Shown here piece after piece: positions 4,574-32,003 of a stretch of 64,000 bases of DNA. The notes under the pieces were generated by a model. That model made no database searches, was not told the DNA's origin, and was given only the letters and a program-made list of their open reading frames with translations. Within the stretch, counting starts at the first letter, position 1. The number at the start of each line of letters is the position of its first letter. The stretch spans positions 310,001 to 374,000 of the forward strand of contig NZ_WUBR01000003.1 in the NCBI RefSeq assembly GCF_009807005.1, given 5' to 3'. This DNA comes from Aurantiacibacter rhizosphaerae. GTDB taxonomy: Bacteria; Pseudomonadota; Alphaproteobacteria; Sphingomonadales; Sphingomonadaceae. A program made the position numbers and the translations under genes.

Positions 4574-5701
4574 TCAGCGTAGGTTTTCGTCCGCAATATC
4601 TGCGCCGTCTCGCAGGGCCTGCAGCTTCGCCCAGGCCACCTTCGGATCGATCTTGCCATATCCCGCAAAGGTGCCGAAACCGCAATCCGTGCTGGCGATC
4701 ACCCGGTCCTTGCCCACGATATTGGCAAAGCGTTCGATACGCTGCGCGATCAGCTGCGGCGTTTCAACATAGTTGGAACAGGTATCCACCAGTCCGGGTG
4801 CCAGCACCTTCTCTGCGGGCAGATCAGCCTTGGCCCACACGGCCCATTCATGCTCGTGACGCGGATTGGCGGCTTCGAACAGGATCGTGGCTGGCCGCGC
4901 GGACAGCACGACATCGAGGATGGTTTCCAGCGGAATGTCGTGCGTGTGCGGGCCTTCGTAATTGCCCCAGCACACGTGCATACGCATCATCTCCGGCGCG
5001 ATGTTGGCGGTCGCTTCGTTCAGGGCATCAACATTGGCGCGGATCGCGGAGAGGAATTCAGCCTCGCTCATATCCTGATAGCCCGTGTGGCGGCTCATCG
5101 CGAGGTCGGGGCAATCCAGCTGCAATTGCAAACCGGCATCCACGATCGTCTCGTATTCAGGCCGCATCGCGGCAGCCAGATCGGCCAGATATGCCTCATG
5201 CGTGGGATAATACTGGTTCGGCTGGAACGCCGTAATCAGACCGGGCGATGCGGAGTTCAGGAATGCGCCCACACCATTGCCCTCAGCCTCCAGCGCGGTT
5301 TTGAACCGGCGGATATCGTCATGCAGCGGCTGCAGGTTCACCAGTTCCACCTTGTCGATGGCGCTGGCGCGGGTGAATTCCTGGCTGCCCATGATGTGAG
5401 ACAGCTTCTTTGCCAGTTCCGGCACCTCTGCCAGATCCTTCGCAGGCTTGCGCGGGGTGTGCCCGCCAAAGCCGGACAGACGTTCTATGATGTAGGTGGA
5501 ATAGCCAACCTTGCCCAGTTCGCCATCGCTTACCACGGATACGCCCGCTGCCACCTGCTGGCGCACGGCCTGCGTCACGGCATCCTGCACCACACGGTCA
5601 AATTCTTCCGCGTCGTATGGTTCGCCCTTGTCACGTGCCAGCAGCAGGGGGACGAGATTGCGTGCGCGCGGCAGGCTGCCGACGTGGCTTGTCTTGATCA
5701 C
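4574..5701 (-). CDS. MetE-core (cobalamin-independent methionine synthase-like) protein
   Basis: 375-aa single-domain protein of the UROD/MetE-like superfamily, matching only the catalytic C-terminal half of classic MetE. Likely zinc ligands lie in RMHVCWGNYEGPH (His and Cys) and in ASTDCGFGTF (Cys). The N-terminus MIKTSHVGSLPR is typical of the family. The start is GTG 5701 with GGGAG eight bases upstream. It is 12 bp downstream of an NTF2-fold gene and is probably co-transcribed with it from the promoter at 6110-6176. Members transfer methyl groups, or open epoxides onto a thiol in the coenzyme M branch. In this setting it could move methyl groups coming from O-demethylation to homocysteine or another thiol. 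That role is inference. Confidence 0.75.
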   Translation of the reverse strand: MIKTSHVGSLPRARNLVPLLLARDKGEPYDAEEFDRVVQDAVTQAVRQQVAAGVSVVSDGELGKVGYSTYIIERLSGFGGHTPRKPAKDLAEVPELAKKLSHIMGSQEFTRASAIDKVELVNLQPLHDDIRRFKTALEAEGNGVGAFLNSASPGLITAFQPNQYYPTHEAYLADLAAAMRPEYETIVDAGLQLQLDCPDLAMSRHTGYQDMSEAEFLSAIRANVDALNEATANIAPEMMRMHVCWGNYEGPHTHDIPLETILDVVLSARPATILFEAANPRHEHEWAVWAKADLPAEKVLAPGLVDTCSNYVETPQLIAQRIERFANIVGKDRVIASTDCGFGTFAGYGKIDPKVAWAKLQALRDGADIADENLR

Positions 5702-5713
5702 CTGGAATTCTCC

Positions 5714-6109
5714 CTAGGGAACGATGGCGCAGCCGACGCTGGCGATCTTTCCGTCTTTCATGTGGTAGTGAATGTACTGGCGCATTTCCTGCACCTCTCC
5801 GGCGGTAACCGGGAAAAACTGCTGCATGCCGCGCGAATCCAGCTCCTCTCGCGTCAAGTCCTTGATCCCTTCGAGGCGGATCAGGCCCTCCACCGCGACC
5901 AGCTCTGGCGAGGAGGCGAATTTCTCCACCGTCACGGTTTCGCGCACATATTTGTGCAGGAAGCTGTAGAATTCGCGCAGCTGCTCTCGCGTGCGGATTT
6001 CGATGCCGAAAAAGGCCATCTGCGGATTTTCGGCATAGAAATCGAACACCGCATCATAATCGCGCGCGTTGAAGGCGGCGGCGTAACGATCGTAATCTTC
6101 GCGGTTCAT
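5714..6109 (-). CDS. NTF2/SnoaL-fold protein (possible lyase)
   Basis: 131-aa cytosolic protein with the cone-shaped NTF2-like alpha+beta pattern. It has an N-terminal helix (NREDYDRYAAAFNARDYDAV), an acidic turn, then alternating strands ending in QYIHYHMKDGKIASVGCAIV. The start is ATG 6109 with GGAGGG upstream; the open frame runs further but the added part is intergenic. It is divergent from a second NTF2-fold gene at 6177 across a promoter with a perfect TAACGATCGTTA palindrome. It heads an apparent two-gene unit with the MetE-core gene. The family includes isomerases, dehydratases and the lignin-dimer formaldehyde lyases LdpA and PcfL. The substrate is unknown. Confidence 0.7.
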   Translation of the reverse strand: MNREDYDRYAAAFNARDYDAVFDFYAENPQMAFFGIEIRTREQLREFYSFLHKYVRETVTVEKFASSPELVAVEGLIRLEGIKDLTREELDSRGMQQFFPVTAGEVQEMRQYIHYHMKDGKIASVGCAIVP

Positions 6110-6135
6110 GCAAATCCCTCCATTGCCTCTCACCT

Positions 6136-6147
6136 TAACGATCGTTA
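6136..6147. promoter_or_regulatory. 12-bp operator, site A
   Basis: TAACGATCGTTA is a perfect 12-bp palindrome in the 67-bp promoter between two divergent NTF2-fold genes. The identical sequence recurs at 13788-13799, and 10/12 variants lie at 10562-10573 and 16918-16929. This site lies 30 bp before the rightward start codon and 27 bp from the leftward one. It is the proposed target of the MarR-family protein encoded at 10627. Confidence 0.65.
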
Positions 6148-6176
6148 GAATTCCTGCAACAGGAAGAGGAGAGGGT

Positions 6177-6566
6177 ATGAGCCGCACGCCGCAAGAAGAG
6201 GCGAACCTGGCGCTGGTGGTGGCGATGTTCGAAAACGTGTTGGTGCCGCTCAATAGCGCCCGCGTGGATGAATACATCGCAGAGGATTACATCCAGCATC
6301 ACCAGAACGTGGAGCCGGGACGAGAGGCGCTGAAAGGCTTTCTGGATTGGGCTGCAAGCCAGCCCGGAGAGGCCGAGCAGATTTTGCACCGCGCCTTCGT
6401 GGACGGCGATCACGTTACGCTGCATTATCACGTGATCCGGCATGACGGTGATCCCGGCTTCGCGGTGATGGACATCTTCCGTGTCGAGAACGGCAAGATC
6501 GCCGAGCATTGGGACGTGATGCAAGACATCAATCCCGATCGCCTCAACCCGCTGTCTCCATTCTGA
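6177..6566 (+). CDS. NTF2/SnoaL-like protein
   Basis: 129 aa, cytosolic, first gene of a rightward operon with an SDR and a DUF3237 gene. Motifs are EDYIQHHQNVEPGREAL (an active-site-type His pair in the SnoaL-like family), HVTLHYHVIRHDGD and the C-terminal KIAEHWDVMQ. This is the predicted SnoaL-like aldol-condensation-type subgroup. ATG 6177 follows AGAGGAGAGGGT. It is not closely similar to its divergent NTF2 neighbour, but it shares the YIQH...AEHWD pattern with the exported lipoprotein encoded at 24427. A lyase, isomerase or hydrolase step on a phenylpropanoid or dimer substrate is plausible; none is proven. Confidence 0.75.
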   Translation: MSRTPQEEANLALVVAMFENVLVPLNSARVDEYIAEDYIQHHQNVEPGREALKGFLDWAASQPGEAEQILHRAFVDGDHVTLHYHVIRHDGDPGFAVMDIFRVENGKIAEHWDVMQDINPDRLNPLSPF

Positions 6567-6576
6567 GGGTCTGGCC

Positions 6577-7326
6577 ATGAGATTTCAGAACAAGATCGTC
6601 CTCGTCCTTGGCGGCAATTCCGGTATGGGGCTGGCAGCGGCGCAAAGCTTTGCTGCGGAAGGCGCAAAGGTCCACCTGACGGGCCGCGATCAGCGAACCA
6701 TCGACAGCGCCGTTGCCAGTATCGACGGCGCGACGGGGTACCAGTCCGACATTGCCGATCCTGCCGCCACGCAGGCGGTGGTGCAGGCGATCGAGGAGGC
6801 CGATGGCCGCATCGACGTGCTCTATATCAACGCCGGCGTTGGCGGCTTTGCCCCCTTGCGCGATATCACCGAGGATGCGTGGGATCACACCCATGCCATC
6901 AATCTGCGCGGCTGCGTGTTCGCATTGCAAAAGGCCGTGCGCATCATGGGGAAGGGCGGCTCTGTCGTCGTCACCGGCAGCATTGGTGCGCATGGCGCGC
7001 TGGAAGGCAATGGCGCCTATGCTGCGGCCAAGGCGGGCCTGTTCATGGCGATGAAGGTGTTTGCAAAGGAACTGGTGGCAGAGGGTATACGCGTCAACGT
7101 CGTCAGCCCCGGCCCCATCGATACCCCGCTGCTCTATCGCAATCCTGGCATGACCGATGATCAGGTGGCGGGCCTGAAGGACATGATGATTGCCAACATC
7201 CCGATGAAGCGCATGGGCGAGGCGGACGAGGTGGCGAAAGCCGTGCTGTTCCTTGCCAGCGATGATGCCAGCTTCATTTCGGGCGCCAACCTGTTCGTCG
7301 ATGGCGGACTTATCGAACTGGGATAG
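6577..7326 (+). CDS. short-chain dehydrogenase/reductase (SDR)
   Basis: Classical SDR of 249 aa. The glycine-rich nucleotide motif is GGNSGMG (about residues 12-18), followed by NAG in YINAGVGG. The catalytic triad is Ser135 (VTGSIGA), Tyr148 and Lys152 (AYAAAK). The C-terminus FISGANLFVDGG is the family hallmark. A cofactor-binding Arg (TGRD) after beta-2 suggests NADP(H) or dual use. It follows the NTF2 gene by 10 bp with GAGGG as ribosome-binding site and precedes the DUF3237 gene by 2 bp. It may oxidise or reduce a side-chain hydroxyl or carbonyl of the aromatic substrate. Confidence 0.88.
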   Translation: MRFQNKIVLVLGGNSGMGLAAAQSFAAEGAKVHLTGRDQRTIDSAVASIDGATGYQSDIADPAATQAVVQAIEEADGRIDVLYINAGVGGFAPLRDITEDAWDHTHAINLRGCVFALQKAVRIMGKGGSVVVTGSIGAHGALEGNGAYAAAKAGLFMAMKVFAKELVAEGIRVNVVSPGPIDTPLLYRNPGMTDDQVAGLKDMMIANIPMKRMGEADEVAKAVLFLASDDASFISGANLFVDGGLIELG

Positions 7327-7328
7327 AC

Positions 7329-7859
7329 ATGACCGACTTCAGCGACACAACGCCGTTTACCGCACCTTTCAGCGAACTGGACAATCCACGCATGGAGTTC
7401 GTGATGGAGGTGCGGCTGACCTTTCCGGAGGTTTATTCCATCACTCCGCATCCCAATGGCGGCATGCGCAGCGCGGTGCTGGTGAAGGGCGGCACGTTCG
7501 AAGGACCGCATCTGAAAGGCCACGCCGTTCCCGGATCAGGGGGCGATTACGCCTATTTCCGGCCTGACGATGTGGCTGTGTTCGATGCGCGTTATCTGCT
7601 GGAGGAAGATGATGGCACCATCATCCTGCTCCACAACAAGGGTTTTCTCTGGGGCCGCCAGCCTGACACCATGCAGCGCCTGCGCGACTGGGCCTTTGCC
7701 GATGGTGAGCCGGTGCCCCATCCCGAATACTATCTACGCGGAAACCCCACCTTCGAATGCGCGGTGGGCAAGCATGACTGGCTGACCAAGCATGTTTTCA
7801 TCGGCGTGGGCGAGCGCAAGAGCGACGGCAATTGCCTGAGGTACTACGCGCTGACCTGA
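7329..7859 (+). CDS. DUF3237 (UPF0311) family protein
   Basis: 176-aa protein with the DUF3237 pattern: an opening strand MEFVMEVRLTFPEVYSI, then PNGGMRSAVLVKGGTFEGPHLKG, GSGGDYAYFRPDDVAVFDARY, GTIILLHNKGF and the C-terminal block KHDWLTKHVFIGVGER. The family forms a beta-barrel and is common in aromatic and steroid catabolic clusters of proteobacteria, but has no assigned reaction as far as I know. It is the last gene of the operon begun by the NTF2 gene at 6177, with 2 bp between stop and start. Its fixed position after an SDR suggests a lactone- or enol-processing step, which is conjecture. Confidence 0.75.
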   Translation: MTDFSDTTPFTAPFSELDNPRMEFVMEVRLTFPEVYSITPHPNGGMRSAVLVKGGTFEGPHLKGHAVPGSGGDYAYFRPDDVAVFDARYLLEEDDGTIILLHNKGFLWGRQPDTMQRLRDWAFADGEPVPHPEYYLRGNPTFECAVGKHDWLTKHVFIGVGERKSDGNCLRYYALT

Positions 7860-7983
7860 TTCCATTGCATTTTCCCAGCCGTGCCCGACACTTAGCTGGA
7901 AAGTATTAGAGAATACGGCATTTGGTCTGTATAAGGGGCCACCGCGACCATTCGCTTTTGGCCGCAGACTGGGGTGCTGCAGC

Positions 7984-8997
7984 ATGTACAGACTGGCTGG
8001 TTTCGATGTGCCCCGGCGCTTTGACGCGCCGATTGTCCGCGTGCTTGTGCAATGTCTGTTCGGCCTTGGTTGCACGCTGGCGATGATCGGCTTTCGCAGT
8101 TTCCTGGATGTGTGGGCGGCAACGGCGGGTCCTTTCGCGCTGGTTTATCCCACCGTTCTGATCGCCACGTTGTATGGCCATCTGAAGGCCGGCATCGTGA
8201 CCTATGTCACCAGTTTCCTGTGGGCCTGGTATTTCGTGCTGCCGACCGTCCACGGCTTTACCTTCGAAGTTGCGACCGATCCTTCGCGCGTGGTGATAAA
8301 TGGCGCCGCGGTGCTGGTGGTCATGCTGTTTGCCGAAAGCTTCCGCCGCGCGGTGGTGACGGCGATCGACCAGCGCGACGAGCAGATTGCACGTGCCACC
8401 ATGCTGCAGCAGGAACTGGAGCATCGCACGAAGAACAATTTCGCATTGGCTGCCAGTCTGCTGGAAATGCAGAAGCGCCGCGAACAGCTTCCCGAAGTAA
8501 TCTCTGCGCTGGAGCAGGCCATTGCCCGCATCCATTCCTTCTCCTCCGCCTATTCGAATCTGGCGCTGACGCAGGGTGAGGGGGCGATGGTGGCCATGCA
8601 GGATTATCTGGCCGACGTCGTTGACCGTGTTACGCGGGGAGCGTTCATGGACAATGTCAGGGTAGAGGTGGAGATCGATAGCGATACGCATCACATGCCC
8701 CGCGAAGTTGCCGTTGCCATTGGCCTCTTCACGAATGAGGCGCTGACCAATTGCGCCAAATACGCGTTCCCGAATGGGCGCGACGGGAATGTGAAGGTAA
8801 AGTTCACCGGCGCCAGCGATAACTGGTCCCTTGCAATCGATGATGATGGCATCGGCACCGCCGGGGTCAGCGCGGAATCAACCGGTATCGGGGAACGCCT
8901 GTTTGCCGCCTTCGCCCAGCAGGCAGGCGCGCAATACCACGTGGAAGCCACACCCAGCGGGCGCTCTCTCCGGCTTGCCAGCCAGGGACTGAACTAA
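7984..8997 (+). CDS. membrane sensor histidine kinase, DUF4118 + HisKA_2 type
   Basis: 337 aa. Residues about 20-115 hold four short membrane segments typical of DUF4118 (KdpD-like) sensors. A HisKA_2 dimerisation region follows, with the phospho-acceptor His147 in ELEHRTKNNFAL. The C-terminal ATPase domain shows an N-box (LFTNEALTNCAKYAF) and a G1-type motif (IDDDGIGTA). No response-regulator gene is adjacent, so it is an orphan kinase; in this order HisKA_2 kinases often feed the general stress response (PhyR). It is flanked by catabolic genes but lies in its own transcription unit. The 124-bp upstream gap has a GTATT-AGAG-AATAC repeat at 7903-7916. Confidence 0.82.
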   Translation: MYRLAGFDVPRRFDAPIVRVLVQCLFGLGCTLAMIGFRSFLDVWAATAGPFALVYPTVLIATLYGHLKAGIVTYVTSFLWAWYFVLPTVHGFTFEVATDPSRVVINGAAVLVVMLFAESFRRAVVTAIDQRDEQIARATMLQQELEHRTKNNFALAASLLEMQKRREQLPEVISALEQAIARIHSFSSAYSNLALTQGEGAMVAMQDYLADVVDRVTRGAFMDNVRVEVEIDSDTHHMPREVAVAIGLFTNEALTNCAKYAFPNGRDGNVKVKFTGASDNWSLAIDDDGIGTAGVSAESTGIGERLFAAFAQQAGAQYHVEATPSGRSLRLASQGLN

Positions 8998-9013
8998 GGC
9001 GCACCAGATCTAT

Positions 9014-9031
9014 CGGCACCGTGCGGTGCCG
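9014..9031. terminator. hairpin between convergent kinase and oxygenase genes
   Basis: CGGCACC-GTGC-GGTGCCG is a perfect 7-bp stem with a four-base loop in the 37-bp gap between two convergent stop codons. No T-tract follows on either strand, so it is a weak or factor-assisted terminator at best. Confidence 0.35.
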
Positions 9032-9034
9032 CGA

Positions 9035-10525
9035 TCACCCCTTGCGGCAGCTGTTCTCCAATTTAGCGCGGCTTACCCATGTACCATGAACCTGGCTGCG
9101 CAGCGGCCTGCCGGTTTTTATCGTGGCGATGGCACCGGCCTCGATATTGTCTGCTTCCACCACCCACAGCTCGCTAGAATAGTCGGACGGGTCGCCTGCG
9201 CCAGGAGGGCCGTTGGGCAGGTCTATCATGCACAGCAACCAGCCGCCGTGGCCTGCATCCGGCGATGGCACATGCGCGGGTTCGCTGATGGCGGCACCCG
9301 GCGGCGTTTCCATCATCGCCAGCTGGCCAGTGGTGGGATCGATCCGCAGCAGCGCGTTGAAATTGGCGCCCACCGGACCTCCCAGCATCGGCGGACCTTT
9401 CGCCTGCGGGTTCATGCTGAGATACCACGCTCGGCCATAAGGGCGGCCCTGCGCTGCATCCTCAACCCGGCACAAATCACCCGGAGGGCCAAGCGGCTGC
9501 TGCGCGATGGCCAGCTCATCCGCGCTCATGTCCACGCTCCACCGGGTCAGCGCGCCGCCGATTTCCTGCTGCGGGATATCGATGCCGCCCGCCTCGCGCA
9601 TGAAGCCAAAGGCGTTGGTATCGCTGAGGCACAGGTCCACATGCACCGTGTCGCCATCCTCGAAGGCGTTTACCTCGTGAAAGCAGGATACGCCCTTAGG
9701 CCCCTCTATCCACACCATTTCCGATACGTCGCCATATCGGGGCATGATGCCAAGATAGCTGGGCTTGTCCTGGTGATGAGCCCAATGCGCGCCACCTTCC
9801 TTCAGCCGGTCCAGATCGGCCAGCGTGGGGAAGATCGGGAAAATCGCGTAATTCTCCGTGATCACGAAATCATGGATGGTGGAGCAATAGGGTTGATCGA
9901 ACCATTGCTCCTTCACCAGATTGCCGTCCTTGTCCGCGATGCAATAGGCGACATCCAGGCTGCACAATCCGGCGGCCTGGTAACCGAAGAAGAACATCTC
10001 TCCCGTCTCCGGGTCGATGCGTGGATGGGCGGTGAAAGTCTCCGATTTCAGCTTGCCCTCATAATCCCAGCGCCCCTCTGTCGCCAGCGTGTGCGGGTTC
10101 ACCTCGTATCCGCGCCCGTCCTCCTTGGTCATGAACAGGCGGCCTGCGTGCCAGACGGGGGTGGTGTTGGCGAGCGTGCGATCCATGCCTTCCGCCGCCG
10201 GATCATCGGTGAAGGGGTTGCGATAACGGCCAAACAGCGCGCGGCCCGCCTCCTTCTCCGCCAGATAGCGCTGGGTTTCGACATATTTGATGCTGAAATC
10301 CACCTTTCCACCGGCAAAGCTGAAGGCCGAGATCATGCCATCGTGGTTCAGCGCGATATCATCTTCGAACATGGGATCTTGCGCGTTATCGGGCACGGCG
10401 CGGAAGAAGGTGCCGTCAATTGCGGCAGGGATTTCTCCGTGAACTTCCAGGTCCTGCAACTTGTATTCTTGCTGCCGCGGAGTATTCGTGCCGATGAAAT
10501 GGATGGTCTGCGGAAACGCGCCCAT
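9035..10525 (-). CDS. carotenoid oxygenase family, lignostilbene dioxygenase / isoeugenol monooxygenase-like
   Basis: 496-aa cytosolic seven-bladed propeller enzyme with a non-heme Fe(II) centre. The four iron histidines are visible: His167 (TAHPRID), His218 (STIHDF), His283 (CFHEVN) and His480 (QVHGTW). Family members cleave the interphenyl double bond of lignostilbenes to two benzaldehydes, or split isoeugenol or 4-vinylguaiacol to vanillin. Length fits this clade. ATG 10525 has AGAGG eight bases upstream. It is divergent from the MarR gene over a promoter with two overlapping TAACG half-sites. A vanillin-type product would feed the aldehyde dehydrogenases and the LigM-like enzyme encoded nearby. 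Exact substrate is unresolved. Confidence 0.88.
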   Translation of the reverse strand: MGAFPQTIHFIGTNTPRQQEYKLQDLEVHGEIPAAIDGTFFRAVPDNAQDPMFEDDIALNHDGMISAFSFAGGKVDFSIKYVETQRYLAEKEAGRALFGRYRNPFTDDPAAEGMDRTLANTTPVWHAGRLFMTKEDGRGYEVNPHTLATEGRWDYEGKLKSETFTAHPRIDPETGEMFFFGYQAAGLCSLDVAYCIADKDGNLVKEQWFDQPYCSTIHDFVITENYAIFPIFPTLADLDRLKEGGAHWAHHQDKPSYLGIMPRYGDVSEMVWIEGPKGVSCFHEVNAFEDGDTVHVDLCLSDTNAFGFMREAGGIDIPQQEIGGALTRWSVDMSADELAIAQQPLGPPGDLCRVEDAAQGRPYGRAWYLSMNPQAKGPPMLGGPVGANFNALLRIDPTTGQLAMMETPPGAAISEPAHVPSPDAGHGGWLLCMIDLPNGPPGAGDPSDYSSELWVVEADNIEAGAIATIKTGRPLRSQVHGTWVSRAKLENSCRKG

Positions 10526-10561
10526 GATTTTTACCTCTTCCCGTGATTCTTGCGGTAACGC

Positions 10562-10573
10562 TAACGTTTGTTA
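10562..10573. promoter_or_regulatory. 12-bp operator, site B (oxygenase / marR promoter)
   Basis: TAACGTTTGTTA matches TAACGATCGTTA at 10 of 12 positions. An extra TAACGC half-site overlaps just upstream at 10556. It lies between the divergent oxygenase and MarR genes, 53 bp before the MarR start, as expected for autoregulation. Confidence 0.55.
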
Positions 10574-10626
10574 CAATGAGTGCAAGACCGCATCCAGGGT
10601 TTGAGGATCGAAGTGGGAGTATGCGG

Positions 10627-11133
10627 ATGAGTGGAAAAGCCAGCCTTCACGGAAGCGAAACCGGCGAGGTGGTGCTGCTGCACCGCCTGCTGAAGCTGAC
10701 GAATAGGCTGATGGCGCCATTCTCCACCCATCTTGCCCACCGATACAAGATCAGCGTGAACGAATTTCGCCTGTTGATGACGGTGGGCGCGCTGGGCCGC
10801 ACCGCCAGTCACGAGGTGGCCGATCTGACGGGTGTGAACGCGATGAGCATCAGCCGCGCGGTGGCCACCCTGCAAAAGCACGGGCGCATCGTGGTGGAGC
10901 GGGACGAGAGCAACAAGCGCCGCAAGTGGCTGAGCCTGACCGACGAGGGAAAGCGCCTGTACGAGATCATGCGCCCGCAATCGGAAACCGTGGCGCATTA
11001 CCTGTTCGGCAAGCTGGAGCCTACCGAACTGGAAGGCTTCGCCAGTATCGTGGAACGCCTTATAGAGCGGCTGGATGCAGAGGACGAGGATGGCAATTCC
11101 GTCTTCCTCGAACGCACGAAACCGGCGGAGTGA
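10627..11133 (+). CDS. MarR-family transcriptional regulator
   Basis: 168 aa from ATG 10627, which has GGGAG at 7-base spacing; ATG 10621 and ATG 10576 are in frame but poorly placed for that site. The winged helix-turn-helix spans about residues 45-105: ISVNEFRLLMTVGAL, ASHEVADLTGVNAMSISRAVATL (recognition helix) and VERDESNKRRKWLSLTDEG (wing). MarR proteins are dimers that usually repress divergent operons and release DNA on binding phenolic ligands. Four palindromic sites of one type lie in divergent promoters of this island, one of them in this gene's own promoter. It is the best candidate regulator of that set. It is followed after 2 bp by an NTF2-fold gene. Confidence 0.88.
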   Translation: MSGKASLHGSETGEVVLLHRLLKLTNRLMAPFSTHLAHRYKISVNEFRLLMTVGALGRTASHEVADLTGVNAMSISRAVATLQKHGRIVVERDESNKRRKWLSLTDEGKRLYEIMRPQSETVAHYLFGKLEPTELEGFASIVERLIERLDAEDEDGNSVFLERTKPAE

Positions 11134-11135
11134 GC

Positions 11136-11561
11136 ATGACCGAGGAACAGCGCCGCGCGATCGAGGCCGATGTAACGCGCCTGATCCATGAATATGTTTG
11201 GGCGAATGACGCGCAGGATTGGCAGCGGTGCGCAGCGCTCTACACCGAAGATGCCGTGTTCCGGCGGCCCAGCGGCGGTGATCCCGTGCTGGGGCGCGAT
11301 GCGATCCTCGCCAGCTTCACCGCGCGTGCGCCCCGTGCTCAGCGGCACGTGATGGCCAATACGCTGGTTGACCTGGTGAGCGAGAGCGAGGCGAGGGCGA
11401 AATCGGTGATCGTGCTCTACATGGGCGATGCCAGCGATGATGGCCTGCCGGTGCAGGATGCCAAGTCTCCGCTGATCGGCACGTTTGAGGATCGCTGCGT
11501 GCTGACAGGCGATGGCTGGCGCTTTGCGGAGCGGACCGGCGGGCTGGATTTCCGGCCTTAG
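11136..11561 (+). CDS. NTF2/SnoaL-like protein
   Basis: 141 aa of the SnoaL_4 type: an N-terminal helix pair (EADVTRLIHEYVWANDAQDWQ), CAALYTEDAVFRRPSGG, a GRDAILASF helix, HVMANTLVDLVSE, and a terminal strand DGWRFAERTGGLDF. ATG 11136 follows GGAG in the end of the MarR gene, and the two are surely co-transcribed. Its stop codon overlaps the stop of the convergent MFS gene by two bases. Its linkage to MarR and its promoter shared with the divergent oxygenase suggest it acts just before or after the stilbene- or propenyl-cleaving step. Biochemical function is not known. Confidence 0.72.
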   Translation: MTEEQRRAIEADVTRLIHEYVWANDAQDWQRCAALYTEDAVFRRPSGGDPVLGRDAILASFTARAPRAQRHVMANTLVDLVSESEARAKSVIVLYMGDASDDGLPVQDAKSPLIGTFEDRCVLTGDGWRFAERTGGLDFRP

Positions 11562-12793
11562 CCGACAGGCCTATCCGCCTGCGCTTCCACCACTTCGCGC
11601 CGTTTCAGCGCAGCAGGCACCAGCAGGGCAATTGCAACGCAGGCAAGGGCCGGTATCGCGGCGACGCCTAGGAAGTCTTTAGGCGCGACAGAGGTTGCGA
11701 GCATCCATCCCCCCAGTGGCGGACCGGCAAATGCCCCAAGCCGTGCCACCAGCACGCCTACGCCCACGGCGCTTGAAAGCATGCGGGCGGGGAACAGATA
11801 TGCAGCCAGGCCCGGCAGCACCATGCCGCCTGCATTGGCCCCGCCAACGCCCACCATCAGCAGCAGCGTCCAGCGGGTCTGGTCTGGCGCCGTCAGCCAG
11901 ATCGCCGCGAAGCTTGCTGCCATCGATCCGAACAGCAGCACTAGCGTCAGTCGCTTGTGCCAACGGTCCAGCAGCAGGCTGGCGGCAATGCCAATGCCAA
12001 GGCCCGCCAGATTGGCGACCCCTGTAACGCGCGCCGCGGCGTCCAAGGTCATGCCGGCACCCGGCAGCACCGTGGGCAGCCAGCTGTTCAGCAGGTAGAG
12101 ATTGCACGCATTGAAGGCGAGCAGCGCGGCGAACACGGCAAAGGGAAAGACCCACGGCGATTTGAACAAGGCGAGTTGCGGCAGCGGCTCCTTCGCCGCT
12201 TTCTCCTCAGTACCTTCGGTATCGCCGAAGCCGGGTATGCCCGGATGGAGGATCGGCCAGAGTGCAATGGCGAGAATAATGGCGAAGGCACCGGGCACAA
12301 GGAACAGCCCCTCCCAGCCCAGCAGGTCCACGATTTCGGGGGCCAGCAGACCGGCCAGCGCAAGGCCGATGGGAATGCCGGCGGAAACCACCGCCATGAT
12401 GGTTGCGCGCAGGCGCGGTGGCGCAAGCTCGGCGGACAAGGCGCTGACATTGGGCAGGCATGCGCCCAGCGCTAGACCGGTCAGCAATCGCCAGACAAGG
12501 AAGCCGGTAATGCTGGTAGCGCTGGCCGTGCCAAGCGTGGACAACCCCGTGACGAGGCAACCAAGCACGATAAGTGTGCGCCGCCCGAAACGATCACCCA
12601 AAGGTGCGATCAGCGCGCCGCCTGCGCCAAGCCCGATCAGCAGGGCAGTAAAGACCCAACCGAATCCGGCAGGATCGAGGCCCAACGCCCCCTCCAGCCG
12701 GGGTACGGCCAGCGCCATGGCGGCGATATCAAAGCCTTCCATGACGAAAATACCGCCCAGCAGGACGAGCGAGACAATGCTGCGGCCGTTCAT
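11558..12793 (-). CDS. MFS transporter, aromatic acid:H+ symporter-like
   Basis: 411 aa with twelve predicted membrane segments. Segment 1 carries VMEGFDIAAMALAVP, resembling the DGFD motif of PcaK/BenK-type aromatic acid symporters. The loop 2-3 signature is GDRFGRRT. A cytosolic loop with EKAAKEPL separates the two halves. ATG 12793 is preceded by GGAGG at 7-base spacing. It is 21 bp downstream of the two-domain NTF2 gene and runs from the same promoter (13715-13865). It likely imports the aromatic acid or a phenolic used by this island. An export role cannot be excluded from sequence. Confidence 0.82.
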   Translation of the reverse strand: MNGRSIVSLVLLGGIFVMEGFDIAAMALAVPRLEGALGLDPAGFGWVFTALLIGLGAGGALIAPLGDRFGRRTLIVLGCLVTGLSTLGTASATSITGFLVWRLLTGLALGACLPNVSALSAELAPPRLRATIMAVVSAGIPIGLALAGLLAPEIVDLLGWEGLFLVPGAFAIILAIALWPILHPGIPGFGDTEGTEEKAAKEPLPQLALFKSPWVFPFAVFAALLAFNACNLYLLNSWLPTVLPGAGMTLDAAARVTGVANLAGLGIGIAASLLLDRWHKRLTLVLLFGSMAASFAAIWLTAPDQTRWTLLLMVGVGGANAGGMVLPGLAAYLFPARMLSSAVGVGVLVARLGAFAGPPLGGWMLATSVAPKDFLGVAAIPALACVAIALLVPAALKRREVVEAQADRPVG

Positions 12794-12814
12794 GTGCGGT
12801 CCTCCGCAATCCGA

Positions 12815-13714
12815 TCAGGCAACACGGTGCAATCCTTCCCCGCCCGACAATGCCTCGTCCCGCCCGTCCCACGGGCTTGGCATGCGATAGGGCACGGTGA
12901 GGAAATTGGCCTCCACCTGTTCAATCGCACCGTCGCGGATGCGGAAGGCTTCGGCCAGGTAATAGCTATGCGGGCGGCGCACCGGGCTGCTGGCTTTGGT
13001 GCCGTCGGTCAGCTCGTACTCTCCCAGCCTGCCCGAATGATCGATGAAGCCATAGGCCAGCACGATGCCGCGTTCGGTATCCACCAGTGGAAAGCGGCGG
13101 GCGCGCAGATCGTCATCATAGCGATACCAGCCCAGCGCGAACTGCTCCTCGCAGCCAAGACGCGCCACGGGCAGGGGGAAGTCTTCGTTATTGGTGGTCT
13201 GCACGCCGTTTTCCACGCGGTTGCAATGCGGCCAGAACTTCGTGTTGATCGTGCCGTCGTTGCGCTCGATCGTTTCGAAATAGCCATCGGCCACGCGCAC
13301 CAGTTCTTCCCGGCTGGAACGCGCCTCGTCCGCCACCAGCGCCTCCATCACGCGCTTTCGATCAAATCGCTGCGGTCCGAAGGGGAAACCCTCGTCCTTG
13401 TTGCGCGCCACCACGGTTTCGATACCGACGATCTGATCGCCCGATATTTCCAGCCGGATGCAGGCCGGGTTCAGCGCATCTGTCTCCTCCACCGCGGTGA
13501 ACACGGCCACCTGTCCGCGCGCGGCTTCGGCAAAGCGAAGATCGTAATCATGTTTCGCAGTGATCGTGTTCCACAGCCCATCGCCCACCGATAGCGCCAC
13601 GTTATTCTCGGTGTTGAACGCATGCGGCGCTATTGGCGCGAGCGAGGGATCCTTCGTCGACAGCGCTGCCAGATAAGCGTCCAGCACGGTATAAAGATCA
13701 CTACGAGACGCCAC
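12815..13714 (-). CDS. tandem NTF2-like two-domain protein
   Basis: 299 aa from GTG 13714, chosen because GGGAG lies six bases upstream; the open frame extends further but only through promoter sequence. Two consecutive NTF2-like halves are seen (about residues 5-135 and 145-285). Each has a helical start (LYTVLDAYLAALSTKDPS; RVADGYFETIERNDGT) and a conserved type of block around NTENNVALSVGDGLW and NRVENGVQTTN. It resembles DUF8021-type tandem proteins, for which I know no assigned reaction. It is cytosolic, leads an operon with the MFS permease, and is divergent from the flavoprotein operon over operator site C. It may dehydrate, isomerise or cleave a dimeric phenolic substrate. Confidence 0.7.
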   Translation of the reverse strand: MASRSDLYTVLDAYLAALSTKDPSLAPIAPHAFNTENNVALSVGDGLWNTITAKHDYDLRFAEAARGQVAVFTAVEETDALNPACIRLEISGDQIVGIETVVARNKDEGFPFGPQRFDRKRVMEALVADEARSSREELVRVADGYFETIERNDGTINTKFWPHCNRVENGVQTTNNEDFPLPVARLGCEEQFALGWYRYDDDLRARRFPLVDTERGIVLAYGFIDHSGRLGEYELTDGTKASSPVRRPHSYYLAEAFRIRDGAIEQVEANFLTVPYRMPSPWDGRDEALSGGEGLHRVA

Positions 13715-13740
13715 GGCCTTCTCCCTCACCCTCAATGCCA

Positions 13741-13752
13741 CTGTTATAACAG
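13741..13752. promoter_or_regulatory. palindrome CTGTTATAACAG
   Basis: Perfect 12-bp palindrome 27 bp upstream of the tandem NTF2 start codon. It contains GTTA and TAAC half-sites in the order opposite to the 12-bp operator family. It could be a secondary site of the same regulator or a leftward promoter element. Confidence 0.35.
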
Positions 13753-13787
13753 GGGTCTCTTGACTCAAGGCCCTGCTAGCTGAAAAG

Positions 13788-13799
13788 TAACGATCGTTA
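13788..13799. promoter_or_regulatory. 12-bp operator, site C
   Basis: TAACGATCGTTA is identical to site A, in the divergent promoter between the tandem NTF2-MFS operon and the flavoprotein-cytochrome operon. It lies 66 bp before the flavoprotein start. Confidence 0.65.
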
Positions 13800-13865
13800 A
13801 AGTCGCGTTGGCAGGCAAGGAGGCAGAACCCTTGCTCGCGGCGCGTGGGAGAGGAAGTATAGACT

Positions 13866-15428
13866 ATGGCGGAAACACCGCTACCACCGGGATTATCGGC
13901 CATGCGGCTGGATGCCGCGCGCGTTGCGCTGGAGCAGGCATTGGGGGCATCGAAGGTTTTCTTCAAGCTTCTGGATCAGCGATCCTATCAGGACAAGTTC
14001 GCGGTGGACGATGCCGCGCACCATCCCGCCGGTGCCGTTGCGCCCGATACGGTGGAGGAAATTCAGGCGGTGGTGCAGATCGCCAATGAATACCGCCTGC
14101 CGATCTTCCCCATCGCGCGCGGAAAGAACCTGGGATACGGCGGCACTGCGCCCGTGCTGGCTGGCAGCGTGGTGCTCGATCTGTCGCGCATGAAGAAGAT
14201 CGAGTTCGACGAGGAAATGGGCACCGTGCTGCTGGAGCCGGGCGTGGGTTTCTACGACCTCTACGATTACATCCAGCGCAACAACCTGCCCTACTGGCTA
14301 TCCACCCCCGGCAACAGCTGGGGCAGCGTGATGGGCAACGCGCTGGATCGCGGCGTTGGCTACACGCCCTATGGCGAGCACACGAAGAACATCTGCGGGC
14401 TGGAGGTGGTGCTGGCCAATGGTGAGGTGGTGCGCACCGGCATGGGCGCTTTCACCGATGCGCCGACATGGCAGGCCTATCCCTTCGGCTTTGGTCCGGG
14501 TTGGGACCAGATGTTCGTACAGTCCAACTTCGGCATCGTCACCAAGATGGGCATGTGGCTGATGCCGGAGCCGGAAAGCCTGATGGGCATGGATGTCGAG
14601 TTTGACCGGCCCGAAGATCTGAAGGTGATGATCGATACCATCGCCCCGCTGCGCCGCGAACGCCTGCTGACCCAGTCACCTAGCATCGGCAACTGGATGC
14701 GCGCCGCCGCCGTGCTGACCACGCGCGACCAGTGGACCGACGAGCCGGGAGCGATTTCGGATTCGGTGATCGACGCGATCCGCAAGCAGTTCAACATCGG
14801 CTGGTGGGGCGTATCCCTGCGCCTTTACGGGCGGGAGGACGTGAACAAGGCGGCTTACAAGGTGCTGGAGGAGGCCATGGGCAATGCCGGGCCGATGGCG
14901 ATCAAGCCCACCAGCTGGCGCAAGGGCGAGCCGCTGGAATATACCGGCTGGACAGGCACGCCGATGACCTTCCCGATGCAGAACGTGAACTGGTATGGCG
15001 GGCGCGGCGGGCACATCGGTTTCTCGCCCATCATCCCGCAGGATGGCGACAAGGCGCTGGCGCAGTTCCGCCGCACCTATGCGCGCTATCAGGAATACGG
15101 GATGGATTATCAGGGCAGCTTCGCGTTCGGCGAGCGGCACATGACCAATGTGAACGCGATGATCTTCAACAAGGACGATCCGCAGATGATGGCAAAGGTC
15201 GATCCGTTCTTCCGCACCTTGGTGGCCGATGCGAAGGAGCATGGTTACGGCGAATATCGCACCCATCTGGATTACATGGACCTCGTGGCAGACAGCTATG
15301 ACTTTAACGGCGGATCGCTGAACCGGATGAACGAGGCGGTGAAGGACGCGCTCGACCCCAACGGCATTATCGCGCCGGGCAAGAGCGGTATCTGGGGCAG
15401 CGCCTACAGGCAGGAGCGGCAAGCGTGA
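13866..15428 (+). CDS. FAD-linked 4-cresol dehydrogenase / vanillyl-alcohol-oxidase family flavoprotein
   Basis: 520 aa, about the length of the flavoprotein subunit of p-cresol methylhydroxylase (PchF). The N-terminal FAD_binding_4 domain shows PIFPIARGKNLGYGGTAP and GSVVLDLSRMKKIEF; LSTPGNSWGSVMGNALDRG is the typical pyrophosphate-binding stretch. The C-terminal substrate domain follows and ends with DPNGIIAPGKSGIWG. Enzymes of this group hydroxylate or dehydrogenate 4-alkylphenols (cresol, eugenol, propylguaiacol) at the benzylic or allylic carbon. A cytochrome c gene directly downstream indicates a dehydrogenase that passes electrons to cytochrome rather than an oxidase. No signal peptide is evident, as is also puzzling for some relatives. 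Which residue binds FAD covalently was not determined. Confidence 0.85.
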   Translation: MAETPLPPGLSAMRLDAARVALEQALGASKVFFKLLDQRSYQDKFAVDDAAHHPAGAVAPDTVEEIQAVVQIANEYRLPIFPIARGKNLGYGGTAPVLAGSVVLDLSRMKKIEFDEEMGTVLLEPGVGFYDLYDYIQRNNLPYWLSTPGNSWGSVMGNALDRGVGYTPYGEHTKNICGLEVVLANGEVVRTGMGAFTDAPTWQAYPFGFGPGWDQMFVQSNFGIVTKMGMWLMPEPESLMGMDVEFDRPEDLKVMIDTIAPLRRERLLTQSPSIGNWMRAAAVLTTRDQWTDEPGAISDSVIDAIRKQFNIGWWGVSLRLYGREDVNKAAYKVLEEAMGNAGPMAIKPTSWRKGEPLEYTGWTGTPMTFPMQNVNWYGGRGGHIGFSPIIPQDGDKALAQFRRTYARYQEYGMDYQGSFAFGERHMTNVNAMIFNKDDPQMMAKVDPFFRTLVADAKEHGYGEYRTHLDYMDLVADSYDFNGGSLNRMNEAVKDALDPNGIIAPGKSGIWGSAYRQERQA

Positions 15429-15439
15429 GAGAGATCGGC

Positions 15440-15868
15440 ATGAAACGCATCGGATTGATCGCAGGCGCCATGGCCCTGGCCGGATGCGCAGGGGTAGCAC
15501 TGGCCCAGAGCGCGGCCGGCATTGACGACGAGACGGAAGCCGCCGCCGAAAGGCAAGGCGGCCCGCTGCCCATGCCGCAACCTGTCACCATGGCACAGCG
15601 GCCCAACGCGACGGGCGGAGAGGCGCTGTATGTCGAATATTGCGCCATGTGCCACACGGCCAACGGCATGGGCACGGGCCTTCTTGCCCGCCGCCGCGAC
15701 GATGCCTTGCTGGAAGAGCGCGGCGATCTGGCCGCGGCCTTCGTGGTGGTGGCCGCGCGCAACGGCATCGGCAATATGCCCGCCATCCCGCGCGGCGAGG
15801 TTTCGGACGCTGACCTGCAGGCAATTGGCGAATATCTTGCCGCCGGTCCGCATGAGGTGACGCCATGA
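15440..15868 (+). CDS. cytochrome c subunit of the 4-alkylphenol dehydrogenase-like enzyme
   Basis: 142 aa from ATG 15440, with a GAGAGAG ribosome-binding site; a GTG at 15425 overlapping the flavoprotein stop is the alternative. The signal region MKRIGLIAGAMALAGC ends in a possible lipobox (LAGC), so the protein is either periplasmic or lipid-anchored. The heme motif is CAMCH in EYCAMCHTANGMG, and the likely axial Met lies in IGNMPAIPRGEV. It corresponds to PchC, which takes electrons from the flavoprotein and passes them to the respiratory chain. It overlaps the next gene by ATGA, showing a tight three-gene operon. Confidence 0.83.
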   Translation: MKRIGLIAGAMALAGCAGVALAQSAAGIDDETEAAAERQGGPLPMPQPVTMAQRPNATGGEALYVEYCAMCHTANGMGTGLLARRRDDALLEERGDLAAAFVVVAARNGIGNMPAIPRGEVSDADLQAIGEYLAAGPHEVTP

Positions 15869-16389
15869 AAGTAACCCGCAGAGCCGTGATCGCCGGTGCC
15901 ATAACTATTCCCGCCATCGCGGGGCTGGGCAGTTTTGCGCTTTCGCAGGGTAACGGCGGGCCGCTGGCCGGAGTCTACGATCCTGGCCTCCCTGCCGGAA
16001 AGCGCCTCGCCAGCATGCTGCGCGATGCGGGCCGCGGCGCGCGCGCGGTGGAGGGGGACCGTATCCGGCTGGCCCGCGAATTGTTTGCCGAAAAGCCCCC
16101 GCTGTTGGCGGGCGTAACGCGATCTGCCGATGCGCTGCTGTTTGCCGAAGTGGGGGCGGAAGAAGGCTATGACCTGAAGCTGGAACTGCGCGGCAACCGC
16201 CACGGCTGCTCCGGCAACAGCTGCTACGCGGAATGGAATCCGCTCAGCCGCCAGATGGTGGGCGCAGGGCCGGATTGGCTGGGCGCCTTTGCGGGCTTCG
16301 TCGCCAATCCCTCATCCCCCGTGCCGATGGATGGCGGCGCGGGTGACGAGGCGATGTCGACGGCCTGGCTGCTGGTGCGCCGCGCCTGA
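15865..16389 (+). CDS. exported protein of unknown function, third gene of the flavocytochrome operon
   Basis: 174 aa. The N-terminus MKVTRRAVIAGAITIPAIAG has twin arginines and a hydrophobic core, so it is a probable Tat (or Sec) substrate. The mature part contains LRGNRHGCSGNSCYAEWNPLSRQMVGAG, with two cysteines four residues apart (C-S-G-N-S-C). ATG 15865 overlaps the cytochrome stop as ATGA. I recognise no family. Its place directly after the flavoprotein and cytochrome suggests an assembly, maturation or docking factor for that periplasmic complex. This is inference from the operon only. Confidence 0.65.
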   Translation: MKVTRRAVIAGAITIPAIAGLGSFALSQGNGGPLAGVYDPGLPAGKRLASMLRDAGRGARAVEGDRIRLARELFAEKPPLLAGVTRSADALLFAEVGAEEGYDLKLELRGNRHGCSGNSCYAEWNPLSRQMVGAGPDWLGAFAGFVANPSSPVPMDGGAGDEAMSTAWLLVRRA

Positions 16390-16392
16390 TTC

Positions 16393-16890
16393 CTATTTGC
16401 GAATGATCAGCGAATCGGGCCGCTTGCGCGGTTTCCATTCGCCGTGGCCGGGGAAGCGTTCCAGCACCTTGCCATCCCACAAACGCACGATGCGGGTCTG
16501 GAAGCGCCATTTGCCGTCCTCGCCTTTCACCGCGTGATCGTCATACCAGCCGCAGAAGCGCAGTTCGTATGGCGGCTCGTCATGGCATTCGGTGACGAAA
16601 GCGAAACCGCGCATTTTCACGCTGCCATCATCTTGCGGGAAATACTGCACCTGCGTGACGTGGTGCTGGCGGCCGGGGAAGCCGGGGGCACCCGCATAAT
16701 GCGCCATCAGGCCGCGAATCCCCTCGTGACCGCGCCAGATGTCCGGGTCTTCGAACACCTCCTCGCTCATCAGGCAGTCTTCGGTAAAACATTCCACCAG
16801 CCCATCGGCATCGCCTGTATCCAGCGCCCAGCTATAGGCGGCGATCAGGTCTTGCAGGCCAAGGCGGTCTTCAATCGAAATGGTCGTCAT
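16393..16890 (-). CDS. NTF2/SnoaL-like protein
   Basis: 165-aa SnoaL_4-type protein. It begins TTISIEDRLGLQDLIAAYSWALDTGD, a common start for ring-hydroxylating-dioxygenase-beta-like and dehydratase-like NTF2 proteins. It goes on with LVECFTEDCLMSEEVF, GHEGIRGLMAHYA, RQHHVTQVQYFPQ and a C-terminal WRFQTRIVRLWDG. ATG 16890 has GGGAGAG upstream; the longer open frame only adds promoter sequence. It is divergent from the NmrA-quinoprotein-ALDH operon over operator site D. The paired histidines in RQHHVTQ are candidate catalytic residues. A lyase or dehydratase reaction on the island's substrate is likely but unproven. Confidence 0.72.
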   Translation of the reverse strand: MTTISIEDRLGLQDLIAAYSWALDTGDADGLVECFTEDCLMSEEVFEDPDIWRGHEGIRGLMAHYAGAPGFPGRQHHVTQVQYFPQDDGSVKMRGFAFVTECHDEPPYELRFCGWYDDHAVKGEDGKWRFQTRIVRLWDGKVLERFPGHGEWKPRKRPDSLIIRK

Positions 16891-16917
16891 GATCTCTCCC
16901 TCATATTGCACCAATCG

Positions 16918-16929
16918 TAACAGTCGTTA
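16918..16929. promoter_or_regulatory. 12-bp operator, site D
   Basis: TAACAGTCGTTA matches the site A/C sequence at 10 of 12 positions and keeps both TAAC and GTTA arms. It lies between the NTF2 gene (start 16890) and the NmrA gene (start 16982). Confidence 0.55.
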
Positions 16930-16981
16930 TGATGATCGCAAGCGGCCAGCAGCCAGAATGGGCCGCAAAAGGGAGAGTTTT

Positions 16982-17890
16982 GTGGCAAGAATCATCGTAT
17001 CCGGCGCGTCCGGCCAGTTTGGCCACGCCGCCGCCTCGCAATTGCTGGACATGGGTGAGGATGTGATCGCCCTGTCGCGCAACACCGACAAGCTGGCCGA
17101 TCTGGCAGAGCGCGGCGCAGATGTGCGATCCGCCGATTTCGAAAGCCCTGACGGTTTGGAAGAAGCGATGGCCGGCGGTGAAAAACTGCTGCTGATTTCC
17201 ACCACCATGGTGGGGGAGCGCCCGCGCCAGCATGGCAATGCGATCGATGCGGCCAAGGCTGCCGGTGTGAAGCACATCGTCTACACCTCCATCGTCGATG
17301 GCGGTAATCCCGATCATCCGGCGGTGGAACAGCACGATCACTGCGCAACGGAAAAGCTGCTGCGCAATTCGGGCGTTGCCTACACCATCCTCTACAACAG
17401 CCAGTATGCGGAGGCGGTGGCCACGGCGATGGCCATCCCCGCGCTGACCGCCGGATCGAAGCCCGACAATTGCGGCGACGGCAAGATCGCCTTCGTCAGC
17501 CGCGACGATTGCGTGCGCACCGCCGTTGCCGTGCTGACGCAGGAAGGGCACGAGAACACCACGATCAACGTGACCGGGCCGGAATTGCTGAGCGTGCCGA
17601 AGGCGATGGAACTGGCATCCGAAATGGCGGGCAAGCCGATCGAGATCATCCCTGTCACGGATGAGGAAATGTACGAATATTTCGATACGCTGGGCGTCGC
17701 GCGCAAGGCCGCGGACGTTGACGTGAACGGCCCGATCCCTTGGGCCAGCGAAGGCATGGTGACATTCGGCCAGGCCATTCGCGAAGGCTATTTCGACGTA
17801 AAATCCGACGCGGTGGAGCGCATCACCGGCCAGAAGCCGCGCACCCTGCGATCCGTTTTTGAACAATACAAGGGGGCATGGCCCGCATGA
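16982..17890 (+). CDS. NmrA-like NAD(P)-binding oxidoreductase
   Basis: 302-aa atypical SDR of the NmrA/QOR2 type, starting at GTG 16982 after GGGAGAG. The N-terminal Rossmann motif is VSGASGQFGHAAA, followed by ALSRNTDKLADLAERGADV. Later blocks KHIVYTSIVDGG and YTILYNSQYAEAV are typical of the subgroup, which lacks the classical Tyr-Lys pair. Members reduce quinones, act as redox sensors, or reduce benzylic ethers in the plant relatives (phenylcoumaran and pinoresinol reductases belong to the NmrA-type superfamily). It leads an operon with the quinoprotein dehydrogenase and ALDH. A reductase for a lignan-like or quinone intermediate is possible. Confidence 0.75.
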   Translation: MARIIVSGASGQFGHAAASQLLDMGEDVIALSRNTDKLADLAERGADVRSADFESPDGLEEAMAGGEKLLLISTTMVGERPRQHGNAIDAAKAAGVKHIVYTSIVDGGNPDHPAVEQHDHCATEKLLRNSGVAYTILYNSQYAEAVATAMAIPALTAGSKPDNCGDGKIAFVSRDDCVRTAVAVLTQEGHENTTINVTGPELLSVPKAMELASEMAGKPIEIIPVTDEEMYEYFDTLGVARKAADVDVNGPIPWASEGMVTFGQAIREGYFDVKSDAVERITGQKPRTLRSVFEQYKGAWPA

Positions 17891-24425: not shown

Positions 24426-24426
24426 C

Positions 24427-24975: not shown

Positions 24976-24988
24976 AAAACCCTCCCTC

Positions 24989-25005
24989 TGGCACCAGTGA
25001 TGCCA
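24989..25005. promoter_or_regulatory. putative operator TGGCACCAGTGATGCCA
   Basis: A 17-bp palindrome with one mismatched pair around a central G, in the 99-bp promoter between the NTF2 lipoprotein-quinoprotein operon and the TonB receptor operon. It differs from the two other operator families of the island and points to another regulator, not encoded next to it. Confidence 0.4.
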
Positions 25006-25074
25006 AAGCCGGGGTGACGCGACAAGCTTTCCCCGTTAAGGCGCCGGACAAAATCAATTCGGATACTGTTACCC

Positions 25075-27081: not shown

Positions 27082-27132
27082 TAGCCAAGGCCGAAACCCC
27101 GACCTAGGCTGACCATCGAAGGGGAGAGATAG

Positions 27133-30528: not shown

Positions 30529-30538
30529 GGCGAAATCC

Positions 30539-31945: not shown

Positions 31946-32003
31946 TGCTCTCTCCTGTGTAGGACATAGTCAACGCGAAGCTACGCAAAAGTGCAAGGGG
32001 ACA

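Follow-up and report, generated by a model that had tools for sequence, protein, structure and literature searches.

Autoregulated MarR regulons for aromatic pathways are a known kind of regulatory system. Among sphingomonads, FerC of Sphingobium sp. SYK-6 is a MarR-type regulator of the ferulate operon, and FerC responds to CoA thioesters. DesR of the same strain is an autoregulated MarR-type repressor of lignin-aromatic genes (ligM, desB and desR being its targets) with similar inverted repeats in several promoters (PMC6888825). DAP-seq of 44 Novosphingobium aromaticivorans factors covers at least three MarR proteins (PMC12352068). Here, a 64,000-nucleotide stretch of the Aurantiacibacter rhizosphaerae genome (contig NZ_WUBR01000003.1, positions 310,001 to 374,000), designated the window, was analyzed for a palindrome that recurs in four divergent promoters, one of them that of a MarR-family gene (marR, 10627-11133, forward strand). 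The comparative evidence makes it very probable that this MarR is the autoregulated repressor of a multi-operon catabolic regulon, acting through a 20-bp palindrome and released by an aromatic compound. The sequence recognized would differ from that of DesR, whose repeats read GTTTGTGT(A/C)ACATAC (PMC6888825) and not TAAC-N4-GTTA; the 15-bp DesR repeat GTTTGTGTNACATAC is not the operator found here, which reads A-N3-TAACRNNYGTTA-N3-T.

The enzymes encoded around these promoters also have described counterparts. In the pin (pinoresinol) pathway of Novosphingobium rhizosphaerae LY, the lariciresinoate decarboxylase PinX belongs to the DUF3237 proteins and is a relative of PhcG/PhcF (PMC12607616), the flavocytochrome is PinVW, and PinU is a homologue of lignostilbene dioxygenase (LSD) (PMC12997858). 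The window holds one of each of these kinds under an operator, but its set adds a pyrroloquinoline quinone (PQQ) dehydrogenase and an aldehyde dehydrogenase (ALDH). The stilbene-forming routes of N. aromaticivorans are alike in combining NTF2 proteins, DCA-C oxidases, decarboxylases and LSD (PMC12997858). The paper describing the pin pathway does not use the term MarR in its main text (PMC12607616). No account of this operator was found in a search of open-access papers, subscription papers lying mostly outside the search, which returned a soybean-locus paper and the CRP/FNR motifs of PMC1274295; nor, judged by listings, was any open-access paper relevantly joining lignostilbene and MarR.

The original prediction described a 12-bp palindrome, TAACGATCGTTA, occurring exactly at 6136-6147 and 13788-13799, with the 10/12 variants TAACGTTTGTTA at 10562-10573 and TAACAGTCGTTA at 16918-16929, and all of these positions were recovered on rechecking. 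The palindrome is real, but the conserved element proved to be longer, comprising the 20 bp A-N3-TAAC-R-N2-Y-GTTA-N3-T. In 60 sites chosen for the TAAC/GTTA core, the inward R and Y were found in 60/60, and the outer A (position -3) or its mirror T (position 16) in 89% of half-sites; all four window sites carry both outer bases. These operators are O1 (ACCTTAACGATCGTTAGAAT, 6132-6151), between the reverse-strand NTF2a and the forward-strand NTF2b genes; O2 (ACGCTAACGTTTGTTACAAT, 10558-10577), between LSD (reverse) and marR (forward), and thus the promoter of marR itself, as had been claimed; O3 (AAAGTAACGATCGTTAAAGT, 13784-13803), between the gene at 12815-13714 (reverse) and a flavoprotein gene (forward); and O4 (ATCGTAACAGTCGTTATGAT, 16914-16933), between NTF2e (reverse) and an NmrA-like gene (forward). 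Each lies, as predicted, in a short divergent intergenic region of 67-151 bp from start to start, the 151-bp gap at 13788 presuming a flavoprotein start at 13866 where our gene-calling script picked 13902. Counting the window among the aligned loci, the core was kept in 5/5 at O1, in six at O2 (bar one base in L038), in 6/6 at O3 and in 7/7 at O4, and in the aligned intergenic regions the operator core was 98-100% conserved, compared with 53-71% for the remaining positions.

The rarity of the element could be evaluated in several ways. When 3328 gapped palindromes (256 4-base half-sites, spacers of 0 to 12) were ranked in a 182-kb sample of which 12.9% is intergenic (window positions 1-22000 and loci L038-L045, with L046, which has no perfect site, left out), TAAC-N4-GTTA came first, with 35 intergenic matches and one coding match. 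For the 20-bp pattern ANNNTAACRNNYGTTANNNT, the window gave four matches (100 shuffles averaged 0.00) and the 3,418,029-base genome seven (about 0.14 expected by composition). The exact 12-mer has four genomic copies against about 0.05 expected, two in the window and the other two in a second catabolic locus. When up to two mismatches are allowed, it matches the window five times, against an average of 0.58 and never more than 3 in 100 dinucleotide shuffles. The fifth of these, missed by the earlier description, is TAACGATCGTAA (6084-6095, forward strand, one mismatch), within the coding start of NTF2a (5714-6109); it was rejected as an operator owing to its coding location and to flanking A and T that are not rightly placed. 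The proposed genome scan for intergenic against coding hits gave, for the 8-base core TAACNNNNGTTA, 12 of 16 copies in intergenic regions, two in genes and two at gene borders (binomial p 2.5e-8 against 13%). Intergenic or coding status rests here on our own codon-usage gene-calling script, a few starts of which are probably wrong, and the 'coding' matches in L044, L065 and one in L071 look like start miscalls.

The reading of these sites as a MarR regulon gained support from the retention of the element in most marR promoters, from site counts that track MarR, and from a layout kept in near relatives, and it is this comparative evidence that suggests binding of MarR to the 20-bp element. Of 30 loci with a marR orthologue, the window among them, 27 have the core TAACNNNNGTTA upstream of that gene, and one more has it with one mismatch. 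Across 298 genomes of the family, those with a strong orthologue (31) averaged 8.1 TAACRNNYGTTA sites (median 8, range 1-13) and those without an orthologue (263) averaged 1.3 (median 1, range 0-9) (Mann-Whitney p 2e-19, although the genomes are related, so that p-values are indicative and overstate independence). Weak MarR matches (83-116 bits) occur in four genomes (core counts 0, 5, 4 and 5), which were set apart for that comparison and placed among the 267 'others' for the 20-bp form. For the latter, 148 sites were counted in the 31 strong-marR genomes and 23 in the other 267, with at most one each; two or more sites were present in 30/31 of the former and in 0/267 of the latter. Three genomes of the same genus without a marR orthologue have 0, 0 and 0 sites.

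These counts also bear on the possibility that the palindrome belongs to another regulator, either of the CRP/FNR type or the IclR protein encoded at 3756-4520, and that marR is merely one of its targets, which we consider improbable. Sites of the CRP/FNR family do look alike, since those of HcpR2 (GTAACnnnnGTTAC) and NssR (TTAACnnnnGTTAA) contain TAACnnnnGTTA (PMC1274295). However, these proteins control nitrosative-stress genes, and their extended G/C or T/A pair is not conserved in the window operator, which therefore does not correspond to the HcpR2-type site GTAACnnnnGTTAC with its outer G/C pair: in the 60 sites, read on both strands, position 0 is G in 42%, A in 27%, C in 18% and T in 12% (0.14 bit). 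Moreover, no CRP/FNR domain was detected among those window genes that were scanned with Pfam. The IclR protein has orthologues in 45/298 genomes, including 30/31 of the strong-marR genomes, which speaks in its favor; however, the 15 IclR genomes without a strong MarR never exceed one 20-bp site each, the 12 without any MarR match, likewise with no more than one 20-bp site, carry 0-5 core sites (median 1), and G213, of the same genus, has IclR, no MarR and 0 sites. The pathway genes were considered in the same way. LSD orthologues (E 1e-180) occur in 35/298 genomes, and the six of these without a strong MarR (G034, G050, G185, G195, G228 and G265) have 0, 0, 1, 1, 0 and 0 20-bp sites, while G111 and G275, with MarR and no LSD at that threshold, have 4 and 2. 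IclR or the pathway genes as the true correlate were rejected, since the number of 20-bp sites follows marR better.

In five of the six LSD genomes (not G034), about 20 kb around LSD (L070-L074) hold 4, 5, 5, 2 and 1 TAACNNNNGTTA sites, usually of the form TAACAATTGTTA and usually without both outer bases, and the pathway genes have their homologues alongside. A MarR of 31-35% identity is encoded in four of these five stretches, which come from genomes with distant or no MarR match. They are perhaps a diverged form of the same system, whose regulator would have a shifted operator, and the core, accompanied there by a diverged MarR, may predate the 20-bp form. The stretches belong to genomes of genus g50 and to G195; in g50, 4-5 core sites were counted in 5/6 genomes and one in G127.

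Regarding the geometry of the promoters, a TTG at positions -11 to -9 was found on 34/96 operator sides that have a gene starting within 160 bp and on 0/32 of the other sides (p 9e-6), whereas T at position 16 was found on 79/96 and 29/32, respectively (p 0.40). The outer A/T is preserved just as well where no gene starts on that side, so it was rejected as a pure -10 signal and assigned to the operator. It is predicted from these sequences that TTGC is the promoter -35 box and that TANNRT, at the operator end, supplies the -10 box, with a spacing of 16 bp (17 for O1 rightward). In the proposed mechanism, a MarR dimer would bind A-N3-TAAC-R-N2-Y-GTTA-N3-T, the ends of which, as TANNRT on either strand, would act as -10 hexamers, with the TTGC boxes outside as -35 boxes at 16-17 bp. 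At O1, O2 and O4, a single dimer sitting between -35 and -10 would cover both -10 boxes and the spacers, turning both directions off, and the dimer would come off in response to an aromatic intermediate of the pathway, so that all operons, including marR, would be de-repressed. Both the repression and this mode of release are inferred from MarR biology and the DesR example.

Some MarR proteins are activators, and an MFS transporter gene belongs to the set. It is nevertheless unlikely that the present MarR activates, or that it mainly senses a transported or oxidised stress compound in place of a pathway intermediate. The operator overlaps the proposed -10 boxes, favoring repression, and the sphingomonad MarR protein DesR is a repressor released by vanillate and syringate (PMC6888825). 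That the palindrome is just a constrained -35/-10 core of divergent promoters, with no regulator site, is scarcely credible: its ends fit -10 hexamers and the TTGC boxes stand at -35 spacing on gene-bearing sides, but T16 also persists where a side lacks a gene start, and the 20-bp element is nearly absent from the 267 genomes without a strong orthologue, though promoters are universal.

The reading as a MarR regulon also agrees with the layout in relatives. One scan of genome contigs yielded nine relative loci, from an uncultured Sphingomonadaceae bacterium, two Aurantiacibacter, an Erythrobacter metagenome-assembled genome (MAG), Altererythrobacter, Sphingobium jiangsuense, a Sphingobium MAG, a Caulobacteraceae MAG and Novosphingobium mathurense. 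Three to five core sites within 17-20 kb were found in eight of the nine, the locus of N. mathurense having none without a mismatch. Both named Aurantiacibacter loci retain the four promoter pairs, as do, for the most part, the uncultured locus and same-genus G103, a few genes being absent from our gene calls or from single loci: MetE-NTF2a / NTF2b-SDR-DUF3237; LSD / marR-NTF2c; MFS with the 12815 protein / flavoprotein-cytochrome-Tat; and NTF2e / NmrA-PQQ dehydrogenase-ALDH. A GMC oxidoreductase gene stands ahead of NTF2b and SDR, directly by an O1-type operator, in L042, L043, L045, L061 and L065, with DUF3237 next in four of these (L043 ends before it), and in L043 and L045 marR follows a GMC gene whose promoter bears the site. 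Three plasmid records obtained by protein search, taken with 12 kb on each side, were held out from the definition of the motif. In that of Sphingobium sp. V4, three core sites lie near marR, one in the NTF2b/marR gap, one ahead of an MFS gene and one ahead of an unassigned gene; in that of Novosphingobium sp. RL4, four lie near marR, before a TonB receptor gene, before an ALDH gene, in the NTF2b/NTF2a gap and before an MFS gene.

Several observations, including the relatedness of the genomes and the near-constant company of IclR noted above, weigh against the assignment to MarR. First, the loose 12-mer (up to two mismatches) shows no genome enrichment (58 matches vs. 82 for the reversed pattern), so that a 10/12 likeness alone proves nothing and the signal is held by the strict core with its flanks; the 16 genomic copies of TAACNNNNGTTA are themselves no excess over the 15.5 expected by composition. 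Second, the separation by TAACRNNYGTTA is not clean, as 5/263 genomes without an orthologue have 6-9 sites, and the six LSD genomes without a strong MarR have 0, 5, 5, 6, 4 and 5, so that only the 20-bp form separates them. G117, a fragmented genome with a strong marR, has one 20-bp site. Third, L037 has no site upstream of marR and L028 has one about 540 bp upstream. The third held-out plasmid, of Novosphingobium sp. PP1Y (L069), has no perfect site, only two sites with one mismatch, before marR and before GMC-LSD-ALDH genes, a number reached in 11/100 shuffles; the locus of N. mathurense (L046) has only one-mismatch sites, including one upstream of marR, in a number reached by 31/100 shuffles. 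Finally, O3 lacks a TTGC box at the fixed spacing, its geometry differing though the operator is conserved.

The genes flanking the operators number 17, close to the 16 or so originally listed, and the list held on reexamination except for one tandem NTF2 assignment. Leftward of O1, on the reverse strand, lie NTF2a (5714-6109, SnoaL_2, PF12680) and, downstream of it, a MetE-core protein (4574-5701, Meth_synt_2, PF01717). Rightward lie NTF2b (6177-6566, SnoaL_2, PF12680; nearest solved chain 3g0k, a 'putative membrane protein', E 7e-41), an SDR oxidoreductase (6577-7326, PF13561) and the DUF3237 protein (7329-7859, PF11578, 118.6 bits), which shares its domain with the decarboxylase PinX, all on the forward strand. 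No chain named as LdpA was returned for NTF2a or NTF2b in PDB searches with E up to 1. At O2, the reverse-strand LSD gene (9035-10525) encodes a NOV2-type lignostilbene dioxygenase (NF053780, 858.7 bits, cut-off 650; LSD isozyme I, PDB 6ojr, E 2e-101), and marR, the proposed regulator gene, encodes a 168-aa MarR-family winged-helix protein that exceeds the curated Pfam cut-offs (PF01047, 29.0 vs. 24.6 bits; PF12802, 29.3 vs. 27) and shows the MarR fold, a helical frame with a winged helix; the forward-strand NTF2c gene (11130-11561, SnoaL_4, PF13577) overlaps marR by 4 bases.

Leftward of O3, the reverse strand encodes a conserved 299-aa protein (12815-13714), 70-91% identical in four relatives, and an MFS transporter (11558-12793, PF07690). 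The former had been listed as a tandem NTF2 protein, which was left unconfirmed, as it has no Pfam or PDB match and its AF2 model has a pLDDT of 31.6. On the forward strand follow a VAO/PCMH-family flavoprotein (13866-15428, starting at 13866 or 13902; PF01565/PF02913), which, queried as 13902-15428, matched PDB 8s7t (E 1e-135), eugenol oxidase 5fxd and PCMH 1dii; a cytochrome c subunit (15425-15868, PF13442); and a protein with a Tat-like signal (15865-16389, no Pfam match, the signal judged by eye). O4 separates NTF2e (16393-16890, reverse strand, SnoaL_4, PF13577) from the forward-strand genes of an NmrA-like reductase (16982-17890, PF05368), a PQQ alcohol dehydrogenase with a cytochrome domain (17878-20109, TIGR03075, 505 bits, cut-off 480) and an aldehyde dehydrogenase (20127-21596, PF00171). 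The nearest solved proteins of the NmrA-like reductase are YtfG and triphenylmethane reductase, and its PDB matches name no pinoresinol reductase of the PinZ kind, for which the rest of the genome was not searched. In three relative loci, a gene of 521-525 aa that the window does not have lies between the Tat gene and O4 (L061 16813-18381, L065 16980-18557, L040 16869-18434); the L061 copy matches the tannase/feruloyl esterase family.

PhcC and PhcD are members of the GMC family. The window unites, by homology at the domain level, the DUF3237 protein, the VAO/PCMH flavoprotein with its cytochrome and the LSD homologue of the pin set. From this enzyme set, from the parallels with PinX, PinVW and PinU and from the GMC neighbours in relatives, we infer that a dimer first has its side chain oxidised to an acid and is then decarboxylated, oxidised further and cleaved at the double bond. 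The regulated genes would thus probably turn a lignin- or lignan-derived dimer into a stilbene-like compound and then cleave it. The pathway had been called an undescribed aromatic one, a label that holds only in part, as its enzyme set closely parallels described stilbene-forming lignin-dimer pathways.

The regulon was originally drawn around the four window promoters, which were upheld, but it probably reaches beyond the window, to at least three further loci as judged by their sites. A 20-bp site at C1:203205 lies upstream of hydrolase-CMD-NTF2-NTF2-SDR genes, and core sites stand at homologous genes in G103 (L056) and in G014 (L064). Another, at C1:1020301, sits in the gap that follows an MFS gene and precedes same-strand genes for two cupins, a cupin-like protein, an SDR and an alcohol dehydrogenase (ADH), as it also does in G103 (L057); a third, less clearly assigned, is near a TetR gene at C2:989691. 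Two more sites, at a GMC oxidoreductase gene (C1:215099, also in G103, L056) and between divergent PQQ dehydrogenase and MetE genes (C1:435731), lack one outer base or have T at position 5. A bolder reading, slightly less likely than not, is that one MarR runs a multi-locus dimer regulon, comprising the window and at least three loci, for an undescribed stilbene-forming route concerned with a lignin or lignan dimer, in which the PQQ dehydrogenase and ALDH replace the GMC oxidases that adjoin this operator in relatives, and in which most promoter pairs are symmetric units with one palindrome as operator and both -10 boxes. The window offers a clean candidate case of an operator that doubles as the two -10 boxes of a divergent pair. 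As a portable tag of lignin-dimer-like pathway genes in related Aurantiacibacter, Altererythrobacter, Sphingobium and Novosphingobium, the 20-bp operator would let NTF2, MetE-core, cupin and hydrolase genes of unknown role be assigned to one pathway, and the MarR is a candidate biosensor for dimeric aromatics, for which no dedicated MarR regulator was found in a limited search of the open literature.

Some neighbouring genes appear to stand apart. Near the IclR gene, 1561-2988 encodes an O-demethylase of the DesA/LigM type, homologous to syringate O-demethylase, which passes both NCBIfam equivalog cut-offs (NF047633, 829 vs. 800 bits); no operator precedes it, the window having only four 20-bp matches, so that it is probably a separate regulatory unit. 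A second block at 22245-32570, in which the operator is not present, encodes a PQQ dehydrogenase, an NTF2 protein, a TonB receptor, an ALDH, a zinc ADH, an esterase and a second LSD homologue, the last below both LSD equivalog cut-offs. A conserved locus of MFS, cupin, SDR and ADH genes with a 20-bp site (L048 428-4400 and L057) is a candidate further branch of the regulon. Lastly, MetE-core (Meth_synt_2) proteins adjoin the operator in two catabolic loci, at 4574-5701 of the window and at 7909-9027 of L003.

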